Below, one piece after another: positions 39,563 through 45,203 of a stretch of 47,263 nt of DNA (within the stretch, counting starts at the first letter, position 1; each line of letters opens with the position of its first letter). Where the stretch lies: contig JAUHYL010000029.1 in NCBI GenBank assembly GCA_030426545.1, positions 1 to 47,263 on the forward strand. The letters are read 5' to 3'. This DNA is from Gammaproteobacteria bacterium. GTDB lineage: Bacteria; Pseudomonadota; Gammaproteobacteria; Pseudomonadales; Halieaceae. Both the position numbers and the translations under genes were made by a program. The notes beneath the pieces were generated by a model. The model was not told where the DNA came from, made no database searches, and saw only the letters and a program-made list of their open reading frames with translations.

Positions 39563-42403
39563 ATGTCTTCCCTACGTCTGCCTTATAACCGGCTAATACC
39601 GGCAATACTCTCTCTCTGTCTCGTCGCCTGCGGTGGCGGAGGCTCTTCCAGTACAAGCACGGCGACAGGGGAAGTAACGCCCCAACTGGACAACGGCCAG
39701 CAGGGCAGAATGCTGGCCTACGCCGACGTGGAGCCCATACTGCAAGGCAAGTGCATCGGTTGCCACAATAGCGGCGACAACCCGCTAGCGCCCTTCTCGC
39801 TGGACGGGCAGGTATTGGCAGAATCCTTTCAGTCGGCCATCCACTACTCCGTCGACAACGGCGTCATGCCACCGGCAGGCACACCGCAGCTGACCAACAC
39901 TGAACGCGCGCAACTGGTGGCCTGGGCCTCCAACTCACCCTACGGCGCCGAACGCGAACTGCTGCGCATTGGCCTGGTGGAAGCCGAGGCCTGGGACGTA
40001 CAGGCAAAAAACCGCGACGCCTTCCCGCACCACCGCCCGGATGAATTCAGCTGCGAGCGTGACAAGGGCTGGCTGGTGGAAGACGACACCCTGGAGATAC
40101 GTACCGAGTTCTGCGACTACCTCTCGCTCGGCCAACAGGCCCTGTTGGATCTCGATGCGGGCGTAGAGCTGGAATTTGCCATGAGCCACAGCGCGCTGAA
40201 CTACAATGCGCCCGCCACGGCCCACGTGGCTGTTTCCATCGGCGGGAATCTGCTGTGGGAAAAAGAGATCGCGATTCCCAGCTCCAACAACCTGATCAAG
40301 GAGACGCTGACACTGCCCTTCCCCGTCTCCCGCGGCGACGCCATCGAAATTCACCTGCATAACCACGGCGACAATGCCTGGACGGTGCACTCACTGGAGG
40401 CGCTTGTCTGGAGTGACCAGGAGATCACCTTCTGTCCGACGTTCGACAGCACCTTCGAAGCCATTCAGGCGACCGTGTTCGAACAGGCCGGTTGCGCCAA
40501 CTCACTGTGTCACGGCGAAGCGCAGGAAGGCGGCCTGGATTTGCGACCATCTGTTGCCTTTGACAACCTTGTCGGCGTTCCCGCCCAGGGCTCTGCGCTG
40601 CTGCTGGTTGATCCGCGTCGCCCCTCTACCAGCTACCTTTACCACAAGCTGTCCGCCAAGACTTTCCCGGGAAGTTACGCTATCGACGGCAGCCCCATGC
40701 CCAGTGCCGGCAACGCGATTTCCGCCGGGCAACTGGAAGCCATTCGTCTCTGGATTGAGGCAGGGTCCCCGCGTGAAGGTTCCGTCGGCGATACCCTGGG
40801 ACGGGGTGAGGATGAGATAGAACGCCTGCTGGGTGTGTGTTTGCCAGAGGCGGAGGCCATCAATACCACGCCACTGCCGCCCCCGGCCCCCGACAAGGGC
40901 ATCCAGTTGAAGATGCCCCCACACGCGGTGCCCGCGGAATCCGAGCGTGAAATCTGCTTCGCCGTCTATGAAGATTTTCGCGACGTAGTCCCCGAGCAAT
41001 ATCTCACCGAAGATCGCGAGGCCTTTTACATCAAGAACGGTAAAACGCGTGAAGACGCGTTCACCCACCACAACCTCGTGTACTACTCGCCCGTGGGTGT
41101 GGAAAGCATCCACGACCCCGCCTTCGGTGAATGGACCTGCGTGGAGGGCGACCGCCCGGGAGAAAGCTGCGACCCCACTGACCGCAGCGCCTGTGGCGAC
41201 GGCGGCCAGTGCCGCGCTGAACTGCGTGACAGCATCGCCTGCCGCGGTTACGGCCCGCAACCGGAGGTTCAGACCGGCGGCGTGCTCGGCCTGGGCTCGG
41301 GCCCGGACCGGGAAGGCTTTTACAGCGAGTATCCGTCGCACGGGATCTTTTACTGGAACTCGCATGCCTTCAACCTGACCACCGAAGACGGTATACACCA
41401 TGTCTGGCGCAACCTGTACTTCGCCGATGACCGCCGCTTCCGTGCGAAGGGCATCAATGAGACACGGCATATTCTCGCCGGTACCGGCACACCACCCTTT
41501 GGCAAGAAGACAGAGTGTCGGGACTATGTGTTCGACCAGGGAGACGGCCTGCTGCGCCTCAGCTCGCACACCCACAAACGTGGCGAACGCTTCTTCATGT
41601 CCGTGGACGGTGAGCAGGTGTATGAAACATTCACCTACGACGAACCACTGGTCAAAGTGTTTGAGCCTGCAATGGTGTTTAACTCACCGAATCCCGAGGA
41701 GCGCGTGCTCGAGTGGTGCGCAACCTGGAACAACGGCGTCAATGATGACGGCTCGCCCAACGTGGAGACCGTGACCCGCCGCTCACGCAGACCGGACAAT
41801 GCCCATCTCTGTTATCCCACCGCCTGTGTTGCAGGCAATGTCGGCGCTGCCTGCAACGGCCCGGATGACGACGCGGCCTGCGACTCCTCACCCGGTGCGG
41901 GAGACGGTTGGTGCGACGCTTGTATAATTCAACCCGGCGCTTCCAGTGACGACGAAATGTTTATTCTACTGGGCAGCCGGGTCGCCAATCATGACGCGCT
42001 GCTGCATGCACCGGCGGCGGACGACCCGCAGGTCAGGTTCGCATCTCCCGCTGCAGGCGAGGTTTTCAGTGCCGGTGACACGGTGCAGCTGGAACTGGTG
42101 TTTACAAACTTCCAGCTTGCGGAACCTGAGGGTCATGGGCACGCGGGCGGCGACCACGGCCACGATGATGACGGACACGAAGGCTCCGGTGATGACCACA
42201 GCAAGGTAGCCGAGGGGCATTATCACGTGTACCTCAACACGGACGATGACAGTGCCGACCACCTGACAGCCTGGACGGAAAACGCGGCCTTTGAATTACC
42301 CGCAGACCTTGCACCAGGTTCGCATGAGCTGCGCATCAGCCTGCGCGCACCCGACCACCACGCCATCGGTGTGGAAGACAGGGTCATCATCGAAGTGGAA
42401 TAG
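39563..42403 (+). CDS. Large lipoprotein with c-type haem motif and copper monooxygenase (PHM-like) domain
   Basis: The 946-residue protein has a lipoprotein signal (LVAC, Cys23) and a haem motif CIGCH (64-68) followed by a cytochrome c-like segment to about 120. A second motif, C-x4-CH (311-317), lies in an apparent haem domain. The copper type II monooxygenase part (PHM-like) runs from about 470, with a THHN pair, and HTHK (His669, His671) as the CuM-like site. A Cys-rich stretch follows. The C-terminal 130 residues hold a His/Asp-rich patch (GHAGGDHGHDDDGHEG) and a YHVYL domain. The role is an envelope redox enzyme, substrate unknown. ATG 39563 is preferred over the in-frame TTG at 39548. 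Confidence 0.8.
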   Translation: MSSLRLPYNRLIPAILSLCLVACGGGGSSSTSTATGEVTPQLDNGQQGRMLAYADVEPILQGKCIGCHNSGDNPLAPFSLDGQVLAESFQSAIHYSVDNGVMPPAGTPQLTNTERAQLVAWASNSPYGAERELLRIGLVEAEAWDVQAKNRDAFPHHRPDEFSCERDKGWLVEDDTLEIRTEFCDYLSLGQQALLDLDAGVELEFAMSHSALNYNAPATAHVAVSIGGNLLWEKEIAIPSSNNLIKETLTLPFPVSRGDAIEIHLHNHGDNAWTVHSLEALVWSDQEITFCPTFDSTFEAIQATVFEQAGCANSLCHGEAQEGGLDLRPSVAFDNLVGVPAQGSALLLVDPRRPSTSYLYHKLSAKTFPGSYAIDGSPMPSAGNAISAGQLEAIRLWIEAGSPREGSVGDTLGRGEDEIERLLGVCLPEAEAINTTPLPPPAPDKGIQLKMPPHAVPAESEREICFAVYEDFRDVVPEQYLTEDREAFYIKNGKTREDAFTHHNLVYYSPVGVESIHDPAFGEWTCVEGDRPGESCDPTDRSACGDGGQCRAELRDSIACRGYGPQPEVQTGGVLGLGSGPDREGFYSEYPSHGIFYWNSHAFNLTTEDGIHHVWRNLYFADDRRFRAKGINETRHILAGTGTPPFGKKTECRDYVFDQGDGLLRLSSHTHKRGERFFMSVDGEQVYETFTYDEPLVKVFEPAMVFNSPNPEERVLEWCATWNNGVNDDGSPNVETVTRRSRRPDNAHLCYPTACVAGNVGAACNGPDDDAACDSSPGAGDGWCDACIIQPGASSDDEMFILLGSRVANHDALLHAPAADDPQVRFASPAAGEVFSAGDTVQLELVFTNFQLAEPEGHGHAGGDHGHDDDGHEGSGDDHSKVAEGHYHVYLNTDDDSADHLTAWTENAAFELPADLAPGSHELRISLRAPDHHAIGVEDRVIIEVE

Positions 42404-42448
42404 GCTTTTCCGCCAACGGGCTGGGGCGCTGGATGACCATTCACCGGC

Positions 42449-43183
42449 TCAGCCGGTTAGGCCGCGCCCGCCATCTACGGTAATTATCTGCCCGGTAATA
42501 AACGGCGCATCAAATGCCAGAAAGGTGACCGTTCGCGCGATATCCGCCGGTTCACCCAGGCGCCTTAGCGGCGTTGCCGCTACCGTGCGCTCCCGTGTGG
42601 ACGCATCATAGGCGCCCCCATCCTCGGGCCAGAGGATCGCACCCGGCGCAACACCGTTTACCCGGATAGCGGGGCCCAGCTCCACCGCAAGACTGCGTGT
42701 GAGTGACGCCAGCCCAGCCTTGGCCGCGCCATAAGCGTTGTAATGCGGCAACGGCCGGTCGATGTGCACATCCAGGATATTCACAATACTGCCGCCGGAC
42801 GCTATCGCCGGCAGCAGGCCCTGAATAAGGAAGTACGGACCACGCAGGTTGGAGCCCAACATCGCATCAAACTCCTCGGGCGTGCATTCACCGATAGGCG
42901 TGGCGGCGAAGCCGGAGGCGTTGTTGACCAGCAGAGACAGCGTACCAAATCGCTCCGCGACGGCAGCCGTCATCGCGCGCACACTGTCCAGGTCTTCAAG
43001 ATCAGCCTGAAAAGTCGCGCAGGAAGCGGGTCGCGCCGCGTTAAATTCCCCGGCCAGTTGCTCTGCTTCTGCGGACGAACTGCGATAGTGCAGTGCAATA
43101 TCGACGCCCTGCTGGTGGAGTTGCTGCGCAACAGCACGGCCAATGCGTCGCGCGCCCCCGGTGACAAAGGCTACCTGACTCAA
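42449..43183 (-). CDS. Pteridine reductase (FolM/PTR1-like SDR)
   Basis: The 244-residue SDR has the pteridine reductase cofactor motif TGGARRIG (8-15), NNAS (87-90) and the PTR1-type catalytic set: Asp138 in place of Ser, Tyr151 and Lys155. The Asp-to-Tyr spacing of 13 is that of Leishmania PTR1 (Asp181, Tyr194). It should reduce dihydropterins (such as dihydromonapterin) or dihydrofolate with NADPH. Start TTG 43183 has GGAG eight bases upstream and no in-frame ATG lies nearby. It follows glyA by 88 bases on the same strand, so both are likely in one operon under the ZTP riboswitch. Confidence 0.85.
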   Translation of the reverse strand: MSQVAFVTGGARRIGRAVAQQLHQQGVDIALHYRSSSAEAEQLAGEFNAARPASCATFQADLEDLDSVRAMTAAVAERFGTLSLLVNNASGFAATPIGECTPEEFDAMLGSNLRGPYFLIQGLLPAIASGGSIVNILDVHIDRPLPHYNAYGAAKAGLASLTRSLAVELGPAIRVNGVAPGAILWPEDGGAYDASTRERTVAATPLRRLGEPADIARTVTFLAFDAPFITGQIITVDGGRGLTG

Positions 43184-43271
43184 TGTCCCGTCTCCAGGTT
43201 GAGTTAGCGTTGCGCCACAATACCAGTTTTTCCGCAGTTCATCCCCGGCCCACCGCCGGGCCGGACATTTT

Positions 43272-44531
43272 TCACGCCAACCCGGGCACAGGAAACTCGC
43301 GACAAAATGCTTTCACTTCGGCAGCGATCGTCGTGAGCTGCGCGGCGTCATCCCTGTTGCGCAAGGCCTGCAGGGTCCACAACGCAATTTGTCGCATGTG
43401 GTTTGTATCCATACCGCGCGTCGTTGCCGCGGGCGTACCCAAACGTACGCCGCTGCCTTTGAATGGCGGTAGCGGATCATCCGGGATCACTTGCTTGTTC
43501 GTGGTAATCGCAACCGTGTCCAGAACATCCTGAGCTGTTCTACCGTCTATACCGAAACTCTGGATGGTATCCATTACCAGCAGGTGGTTTTTCGTTCCAC
43601 CCGTGACGAGGCTGACGCCCTGATCAAGCAGCGCGTCAGCGAACGCACTCGCGTTCTCCAGCACCTGTCCTGCATAGCGCGCAAAACCCTCACTGGCGGC
43701 GTGCTTCAGAGTCACGGCTACCGCTGCAACCTGATTCATGTGCGGCCCACCCTGCAGCCCCGGGAACACCGAACTGTCGATATCACGGGCGAGTTCATCG
43801 CGGCATAAAATCAAACCGCCGCGGGGTCCGCGAAGCGACTTATGGGTGGTGGTGGTGACGATATCGAATCCGGCATCCAGGGGATTTGCCATCACGTTCG
43901 CCGCCACCAGGCCACCGAAGTGCGAGATGTCGGCCATGGTCAGGGCCCCCACCTCGACCGCTATCTCCTTGAAACGGGCATAATCCAGATCCCCCGGGTA
44001 GGAGGAATAACCGCAGATCAGTAAGCGTGGTTTGTGCGCCAGTGCCATGTCGCGCACGTGGTCATAGTCAATGGCTCCGCTGCGGGGCAAGGTTTTGTAG
44101 CGCGCAAAATCGAAAAGACGCCCCATGTGCGATACCGGCGCTCCGTGCGTAAGGTGCCCGCCGTGTGATAGGTCCATGGCGAGGATACGATCGCCGGGTT
44201 TTAACACGCCCAGGTAAGACGCCTGATTCATGGCAGATCCGGACAAAGGCTGAACATTGGCATGCTGCGCCCGAAAAACCTCGCAAGCGCGCTGGCGCGC
44301 CAGGTTTTCGATCTCATCGGTATACTCCTGTCCACCGTAGTACCGTTTACCCGGGTAGCCCTCGGAGTACTTGTTGGTAAAAACGGAGCCCAGCAGGGCC
44401 AACACTTCAGGGTAGGTATAGTTTTCCGAGGGGATCAGTTCAATCCCCTCGCGCTGGCGCTGTTCCTCACCGCACAGTGCGGCAAACAGTTCCGGATCGT
44501 TCTCTTGCAGTAAGCTTCTATGGTCAGACAT
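43272..44531 (-). CDS. glyA: Serine hydroxymethyltransferase
   Basis: The 419-residue protein is a full GlyA. It shows ELIPSENYT, GGQEYTDEIE, the THKSLRGPRGG PLP-binding block (Lys231), and GSGVRLGTPAATTRG near the end. It moves the Ser hydroxymethyl group to tetrahydrofolate, giving Gly and 5,10-methylene-THF in the cytoplasm. ATG 44531 has AAGGAG seven bases upstream; a longer frame to 44807 runs through the riboswitch and is not coding. The ribosome binding site can be hidden by a stem in the riboswitch expression platform. A pteridine reductase follows. Confidence 0.97.
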   Translation of the reverse strand: MSDHRSLLQENDPELFAALCGEEQRQREGIELIPSENYTYPEVLALLGSVFTNKYSEGYPGKRYYGGQEYTDEIENLARQRACEVFRAQHANVQPLSGSAMNQASYLGVLKPGDRILAMDLSHGGHLTHGAPVSHMGRLFDFARYKTLPRSGAIDYDHVRDMALAHKPRLLICGYSSYPGDLDYARFKEIAVEVGALTMADISHFGGLVAANVMANPLDAGFDIVTTTTHKSLRGPRGGLILCRDELARDIDSSVFPGLQGGPHMNQVAAVAVTLKHAASEGFARYAGQVLENASAFADALLDQGVSLVTGGTKNHLLVMDTIQSFGIDGRTAQDVLDTVAITTNKQVIPDDPLPPFKGSGVRLGTPAATTRGMDTNHMRQIALWTLQALRNRDDAAQLTTIAAEVKAFCREFPVPGLA

Positions 44532-44533
44532 GA

Positions 44534-44563
44534 GCATCTCCTTCTGACAGTGAAAGATGATGC
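44534..44563 (-). promoter_or_regulatory. Expression platform stem hiding the glyA ribosome binding site
   Basis: On the minus strand GCATC-A-TCTTT (44563-44553) can pair with AAGGA-GATGC (44543-44534) in ten pairs with one bulged A and one G-U, around a nine-base loop. AAGGAG is the glyA Shine-Dalgarno. GCATC is also the end of the aptamer, so ligand binding should free the site. Confidence 0.65.
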
Positions 44564-44645
44564 CCAGGCGATCGGCGCGGCAGGAGCGGACTCCAGGTCT
44601 GTGCTCCACGGTGGTGAACCACCCGAACTCGCCAGTCACACAGAC
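44559..44645 (-). promoter_or_regulatory. ZTP (pfl) riboswitch upstream of glyA
   Basis: On the minus strand P1 is formed by GTCTGTG (44645-44639) and CACAGAC (44603-44597). Inside is the conserved GTGACTGGCGAG, the hairpin GGTGGTTCACCACC and GTGGAGC. After a linker comes the 3' conserved GCCTGGGCATC. This is the ZTP/ZMP-binding aptamer (pfl motif). ZTP riboswitches turn on one-carbon and purine genes when ZTP/ZMP rises. The rest of the gap to 44757 should hold the promoter, not identified. Confidence 0.92.
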
Positions 44646-44757
44646 GCAGACAAGGTAGAACGGCAGCAGCGATCCGGCAAGACTGAATTTGTCACAAACT
44701 TGATGGGTGGTGACTGTGGCGCAGTGACAGGGCGCCTTAATCAGGCATTGAGGACGC

Positions 44758-45120
44758 TCAGCCGAGCAACAGTGGCGCCAGAAACAGGAAGCACAGCGTG
44801 CCATCAACTACGATGCCCGGTATCGCGCCCTTCAGGCCGATTCCGTCCACCGCCAGAGACCACAAGCGCGCCAGCGTCAGCACACCCCAGGTAAGGCCGA
44901 GTGCGGTAAAGATCAACGGTTCACCGAACGTGAACGCGGCGATGGCCATACCGAGGTTAAGGCCACCGAAAACGGCCCTTGCCTCAGATACTGCCGCCGC
45001 ATTCGTCAGTTCGATACCCAGCGGTTTTACCAGCAATCGCGGCTTGAAAAAACCAATCAGTCCGAAGAGCAGCGTGATGGCGGCGCCCAGTTTCGGCAAA
45101 AAGGGAATGATCTCGTTCAT
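44758..45120 (-). CDS. DUF4345-like small membrane protein
   Basis: The 120-residue protein has four hydrophobic segments (about 7-28, 48-72, 74-92, 102-118) and the motif ARAVFGGLNLGMAIAAF, as in DUF4345 membrane proteins. Function unknown. It follows the flavin monooxygenase by 83 bases on the same strand and may share its transcript. The ATG at 45120 is supported by the start of the first segment. Confidence 0.68.
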   Translation of the reverse strand: MNEIIPFLPKLGAAITLLFGLIGFFKPRLLVKPLGIELTNAAAVSEARAVFGGLNLGMAIAAFTFGEPLIFTALGLTWGVLTLARLWSLAVDGIGLKGAIPGIVVDGTLCFLFLAPLLLG

Positions 45121-45203
45121 GTTCGGCTCCAGAGCTGTTGGATTGGATTGTTAGAGAGGATTGCGGCATTCCCGCTGCTCCACTGCACCGCCGTGCGATT
45201 GCG

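Follow-up and report, generated by a model that had tools for sequence, protein, structure and literature searches.

Results and Discussion

On the minus strand of the 47,263-nt stretch analysed here (the window), a DUF4345 gene is followed by a ZMP/ZTP riboswitch aptamer, a serine hydroxymethyltransferase gene (glyA2) and the gene of a FolM-type pteridine reductase (folM). The aptamer (RF01750) lies at 44555–44649. It was detected by cmscan with 59.1 bits against a gathering score of 39, over the full length of the model (positions 1–86 of 86; E 3.6e-07), and is the sole match above the gathering score in an Rfam scan of the whole window. The 4.35-Mb assembly gave one RF01750 match, at 44649–44555 on the minus strand. 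A ZTP aptamer had been claimed in the earlier note, with an Infernal search against RF01750 set beforehand as the check; the full-length match bears the claim out. All of the pieces named at that time were found, namely GTGACTGGCG, the GGTGG/CCACC hairpin, CACAGAC closing P1, and GCCTGGGC. The interval given then, 44534–44645, takes in the aptamer and the Shine–Dalgarno (SD) region apart from a few end bases. In published structures of ZTP riboswitches, the pseudoknot strands are GGCG and CGCC. Both are present in the window aptamer, where they could pair in the same way. Two pairs of the Rfam alignment are non-standard. The aptamer is predicted to bind ZMP/ZTP and to respond to this ligand.

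The glyA2 gene (43272–44531, minus strand; 419 aa) starts 23 nt past the end of the aptamer and reads in the same direction, with an ATG at 44531–44529. Its product scores 513.2 bits with NF000586 (cut-off 335), which confirms the glyA identity proposed earlier. It carries TTTTHKSLRGPRGG at residue 226, which we take to be the PLP-lysine motif of serine hydroxymethyltransferase.

The RNA that leads into the start codon folds into an anti-SD hairpin, UGGGCAUC-A-UCUUUC / GAAGGAGAUGCUCA (44531–44566, minus strand), which is supported by folding and by partner-specific complementarity in relatives. Both the minimum free energy (MFE) structure and the centroid of 44580–44520 (minus strand) contain it, with 14 pairs and one bulged A between 44566 and 44531, and it also appears in the fold of the 130-nt leader. 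The hairpin covers the SD and reaches the A of the glyA2 start codon. The pairing of GCATC-A-TCTTT with AAGGA-GATGC that had been drawn before is part of it; the helix is longer than was stated. The GGC of the hairpin arm is the same GGC that closes aptamer helix P3, and the bound aptamer and the full hairpin are therefore mutually exclusive. This geometry, with the SD hidden, the aptamer helix excluded and the complementarity partner-specific, supports the translational ON switch of the earlier note.

As a whole, the fold of 44580–44520 is unexceptional (z −1.15, 24/200 shuffles as good), as is that of the 130-nt leader (z −0.46, 66/200). The duplex between the 12-nt arm and the SD region has an energy of −14.0 kcal/mol, compared to a mean of −5.5 kcal/mol for mononucleotide shuffles of the SD region, of which 6/2000 were as good. 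The best fold with the hairpin has −48.3 kcal/mol and the best with the Rfam aptamer pairs −33.3 kcal/mol; pseudoknot and ligand energy are left out of both, and the comparison would say only that the ligand-free RNA is predicted to prefer the hairpin.

We compared this leader with those of related glyA genes. Relatives of the window GlyA were confirmed on 166 stretches, and the best 80 were used as loci. A covariance model, R1, built from 15 leaders, finds the aptamer in 46 of these best 80 (of 166). For the pairing comparison, leaders were chosen by a sequence pattern at 48 of the best 80 loci, which together with the window gives 49 leaders; L052 and L058, missed by R1, are in this set. At these two loci, ZTP-like leaders with a conserved 3′ part, and perhaps with insertions, lie within 260 nt upstream of glyA. 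According to a second sequence pattern, 26 of the 49 leaders have a terminator-like end and 23 lack it.

In the 23 leaders lacking the terminator pattern, the duplex of each arm with its own SD region has a mean energy of −12.81 kcal/mol. Permuted partners give −10.95 kcal/mol (sd 0.41), and none of 5000 permutations was as good; nor was any of 500 sets of shuffled SD regions. A subset of 10 leaders gave 13/5000 permutations as good and 14 hand-picked representatives gave 14/20000, the shared ancestry of the leaders not being fully removed in any of these permutation tests. Chance pairing of the anti-SD arm was rejected on the permuted-partner and shuffle tests. In MFE folds of the RNA after P3, at least three GGGC bases are paired no more than 25 nt from the start-codon end in 20/23 leaders without the terminator pattern, compared to 3/26 with it. 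At least two GGGC bases are paired downstream in 25 of the 26 leaders with the pattern, which points to the same ON logic. L045 and L046, the nearest relatives, retain the helix with different letters. The arm–SD fit is poor in individual leaders, among them L052, L053, L070 and L081, and the anti-SD rule is thus not universal. A translational ON switch for glyA2 is well supported by these observations. The response to ligand is a prediction, and the switch would be expected to act in the ON direction in the cell.

The genome of the window has another glyA copy, on contig C126, whose product is 47% identical to that of glyA2. From its sequence, the gene after it can be read as nrdR. A glyA match was present in 17/18 genomes of the genus sample (G121 gave none), and the type found in the window only in the window's genome and in G127. 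A search for rpoB in the window's own assembly gave no match, and an rpoB species tree was set aside.

A quick GlyA tree was built from 71 of 119 rows; it has several long branches and drew a program warning. The window groups with L045 (a contig of G127), L046, L058 and L041 (SH-aLRT 98*). This five-row group is nested in a set of 30 rows (97*), and 24 of the other 25 rows are alphaproteobacterial by title. Six other gammaproteobacterial ZTP-glyA rows (L040, L042, L043, L047, L048 and L052) fall outside this set, in a clade of their own (100*), and one simple transfer therefore does not explain all of them. By the tree, the nearest kin of glyA2 beyond a small gammaproteobacterial set are alphaproteobacterial ZTP-glyA genes. 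Most likely, the riboswitch and glyA2 moved together by horizontal transfer. A plasmid with a close relative of glyA2 was sought and rejected, all of the 139 plasmid records at E ≤ 1e-100 having identities below 60%.

The site of glyA2 can be compared with that in congeners. The upstream neighbour in the window is the DUF4345 gene (44758–45120, minus strand; PF14248, 27.8 bits against 26.5). In G116 and G123, the tblastn context shows this gene adjoining folM with no glyA between. The distance from its end to folM is about 15–30 nt in G116, depending on the choice of start codon, and at most about 236 nt in G123. A monooxygenase gene further upstream is common to the window and G123. In the window and in G127, the DUF4345 gene and folM are separated by the riboswitch and glyA2, the folM of G127 being cut by the contig end with 62 aa visible. 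The gap between the DUF4345 gene and the riboswitch in G127 (L045:2951–3069) contains a 29-nt inverted repeat, 97% complementary with arms 61 nt apart, which resembles a small repeat element. The DUF4345–folM gap of G123 was searched for traces of glyA2 or the riboswitch; only matches of 8–12 nt were obtained, with E values of 1.3 or more, and a remnant was rejected.

In the FolM tree, the window, G116, G123 and G127 form a group (82/83), in which the window is closer to G123 than to G127 (91/86); both branches are unstarred and the G127 row is 25% filled. Most branches are likewise unstarred in the congener trees of FolM and of the other GlyA. Since the window FolM is closer to that of G123, which has no glyA2, than to that of G127, which has it, a single insertion requires later loss or exchange. 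The glyA2 gene may have been inserted once and later lost, or have been exchanged, or have entered twice.

The distribution of the riboswitch is sporadic. RF01750 matches at E ≤ 0.001 were obtained in 2/140 genomes of the family, 6/390 of the order, 2/369 of the class and 38/398 of the phylum, and those above the cut-off in 2, 5, 2 and 35 genomes, respectively; the window's genome is counted in each of the four samples, and weak matches may have been lost to the stricter filters applied. The riboswitch precedes the glyA type of the window (65–77% identity) in G127 and in five other genomes of the order, the match in G475 lying below the cut-off. Among the seven genomes with the riboswitch and this glyA type, four have two glyA genes, and G491, G352 and G475 gave no other. 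In these three (L155, L157 and L158), replacement of the housekeeping glyA is possible. In other families of the class (f153, f230 and f232), the riboswitch precedes a housekeeping-type glyA whose product is 63–66% identical to the other GlyA of the window's genome; the glyA of the window, a second copy, belongs to another lineage. Among other class members, the riboswitch was seen near housekeeping-type glyA genes, a lineage separate from that of the window, at L044, L126, L130, L134, L136, L138, L139, L141, L147, L150 and L151. A GlyA match is present in 11 of the 29 phylum loci (L125–L153), most of which do not extend far enough to judge the gene after glyA.

Known systems resemble that of the window in part. 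In Cupriavidus metallidurans, induction of a pfl-glyA-lacZ fusion by trimethoprim has been reported (PMC10882993); the aptamer family and the enzyme are the same as in the window. Among pfl genes, glyA is described as one of the commonest (PMC2864571). ZTP riboswitches on glyA are already known, and the switch itself is therefore not new. Parvibaculum-type ZTP-glyA leaders share the aptamer and the wider glyA lineage with the window. They differ in having a terminator-like stem and U-run in place of the anti-SD hairpin of the window.

The explanation we favor, and hold with considerable confidence, is that a ZMP/ZTP switch turns on translation of glyA2 at a shortage of 10-formyl-THF and that the two probably form a co-transferred unit between the DUF4345 gene and a resident folM. 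In the absence of ligand, the GGGCAUC..UCUUU strand after the aptamer would pair with the SD region, and glyA2 would be translated poorly. With ZMP/ZTP bound, the GGC strand would be held by P3 and the pseudoknot, the hairpin would be incomplete and ribosomes could start. The riboswitch and glyA2 would have landed between the DUF4345 gene and folM. The latter is perhaps partly co-expressed through read-through, and its own promoter may persist.

The folM gene (42449–43183, minus strand; 244 aa, TTG start) scores 303.9 bits with NF006598 (cut-off 288). Its product shows TGGARRIG at residue 8, which fits the TGX3RXG motif described in PMC1971073, and D..Y...K. Of the PTR1-type pteridine reductase claimed in the earlier note, the pteridine reductase stands by NF006598 and the motifs. 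The score with the Leishmania PTR1 model is below the cut-off (TIGR02685, 156.2 against 321.7 bits), and FolM type is therefore the better name. The same note had called this enzyme a less usual partner of the riboswitch, and the samples agree: among the best 80 loci, a FolM match of more than 50% identity occurs only at L045, and the remaining FolM matches shown have 28–32% identity. For five of these 80 loci (L045, L083, L092, L105 and L113), the sequence stops no more than about 350 nt from glyA. No FolM match at E ≤ 1e-5 was present in stretches of 4.4–6.5 kb from four genomes of the order, nor was a FolM match found in L046, the leader of which is identical to that of G269. Of all loci examined, the window and G127 were the only ones with a FolM/PTR1 reductase gene next to a ZTP-glyA. 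In G385 and G352 (L156 and L157), the next long ORF downstream of glyA2 shares its strand and is not FolM. A search for literature joining ZTP, riboswitch and pteridine reductase found none; we do not claim that the ZTP-glyA-folM order is unpublished.

Whether folM belongs to the regulated unit bears on a competing explanation, to which we give nearly even chances. It holds that the riboswitch acts on glyA2 alone and that folM is separate, with its own promoter in the gap, so that the neighbourhood would be without regulatory meaning. The platform is translational and folM has its own ribosome site (GGAG), as this explanation would have it. On the glyA strand, the 88-nt gap (43184–43271, minus strand) has a GC-rich hairpin that lacks a U-tract; the gap also contains a short CTGGTA..GT motif common to G127 (AAACTGGTATTGT / AAGCTGGTAAGGT), which could be part of a separate folM promoter. 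In L046, L047 and L058, and likewise in L155 and L158, the ORF listed next after glyA2 runs on the opposite strand. Furthermore, folM is present in 17/18 genomes of the genus (E ≤ 1e-40), compared to 2/18 for glyA2. A separate folM is opposed by the short distance on the same strand, by the only terminator-like site of the gap being on the strand other than that of glyA2 and folM (a plus-strand hairpin, 43245–43264), and by the glyA2-folM order in G127, as far as its cut folM goes. The ORF list has no likely plus-strand gene end just before 43245–43264. A simple scan for sigma-70-like promoters in 42350–45200 found none, compared to 0.9 expected in shuffles, which counts against the explanation we favor. 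The glyA2-folM operon of the earlier note is only half supported, and the two genes may be co-transcribed. A translational switch would reach folM only through polarity or mRNA decay. A tie between the riboswitch and the pteridine reductase is plausible.

It is unlikely that the switch is mainly transcriptional, for example through Rho-dependent termination of untranslated glyA2, in which case glyA2 and folM would rise together. In Gram-negative bacteria, a block of translation commonly causes polarity, and related alphaproteobacterial leaders have terminator-like stems on the same strand. However, no U-tract follows the hairpin of the window, and none of the scan's eight terminator-like sites lies in the glyA2 leader. 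That the aptamer is a decayed remnant in front of a constitutive glyA2 is highly improbable; its rarity in the family (2/140) and the two non-standard pairs would fit, but the match is full-length at 59.1 bits and relatives retain the anti-SD helix with other letters.

Conclusion

We regard the element as a riboswitch of an ordinary kind whose setting is somewhat unusual, with glyA2 translation under its predicted control. A broader reading is offered tentatively. The ZTP riboswitch and this glyA lineage may be a portable folate-stress unit that entered the Pseudomonadales at least twice. In the branch of G491, G352 and G475 it carries the sole glyA detected, perhaps having replaced the housekeeping gene, and in the branch of the window it would supply an inducible second enzyme. 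Placed before folM in this genus, it would make an inducible pair, in which FolM may stand in as a reductase of dihydrofolate or dihydropterin whenever a failure of the folate supply is signalled by ZTP. The assembly has a DHFR_1 match. A FolM that serves phenylalanine hydroxylase was considered and rejected, the assembly having no Biopterin_H match.

A review gives dihydrofolate as the best substrate of the P. aeruginosa FolM homolog, and dihydropterins as those of others (PMC13259868). Should the FolM of the window likewise reduce dihydrofolate, glyA2 and folM together would respond directly to a failure of dihydrofolate reduction. It is the setting that could be put to use. A stress-sensing riboswitch, seemingly moving with its enzyme into genomes in which that enzyme is already present, has here come to lie next to a pterin reductase, and the origin of regulated stress pairs can be tested on such a case.
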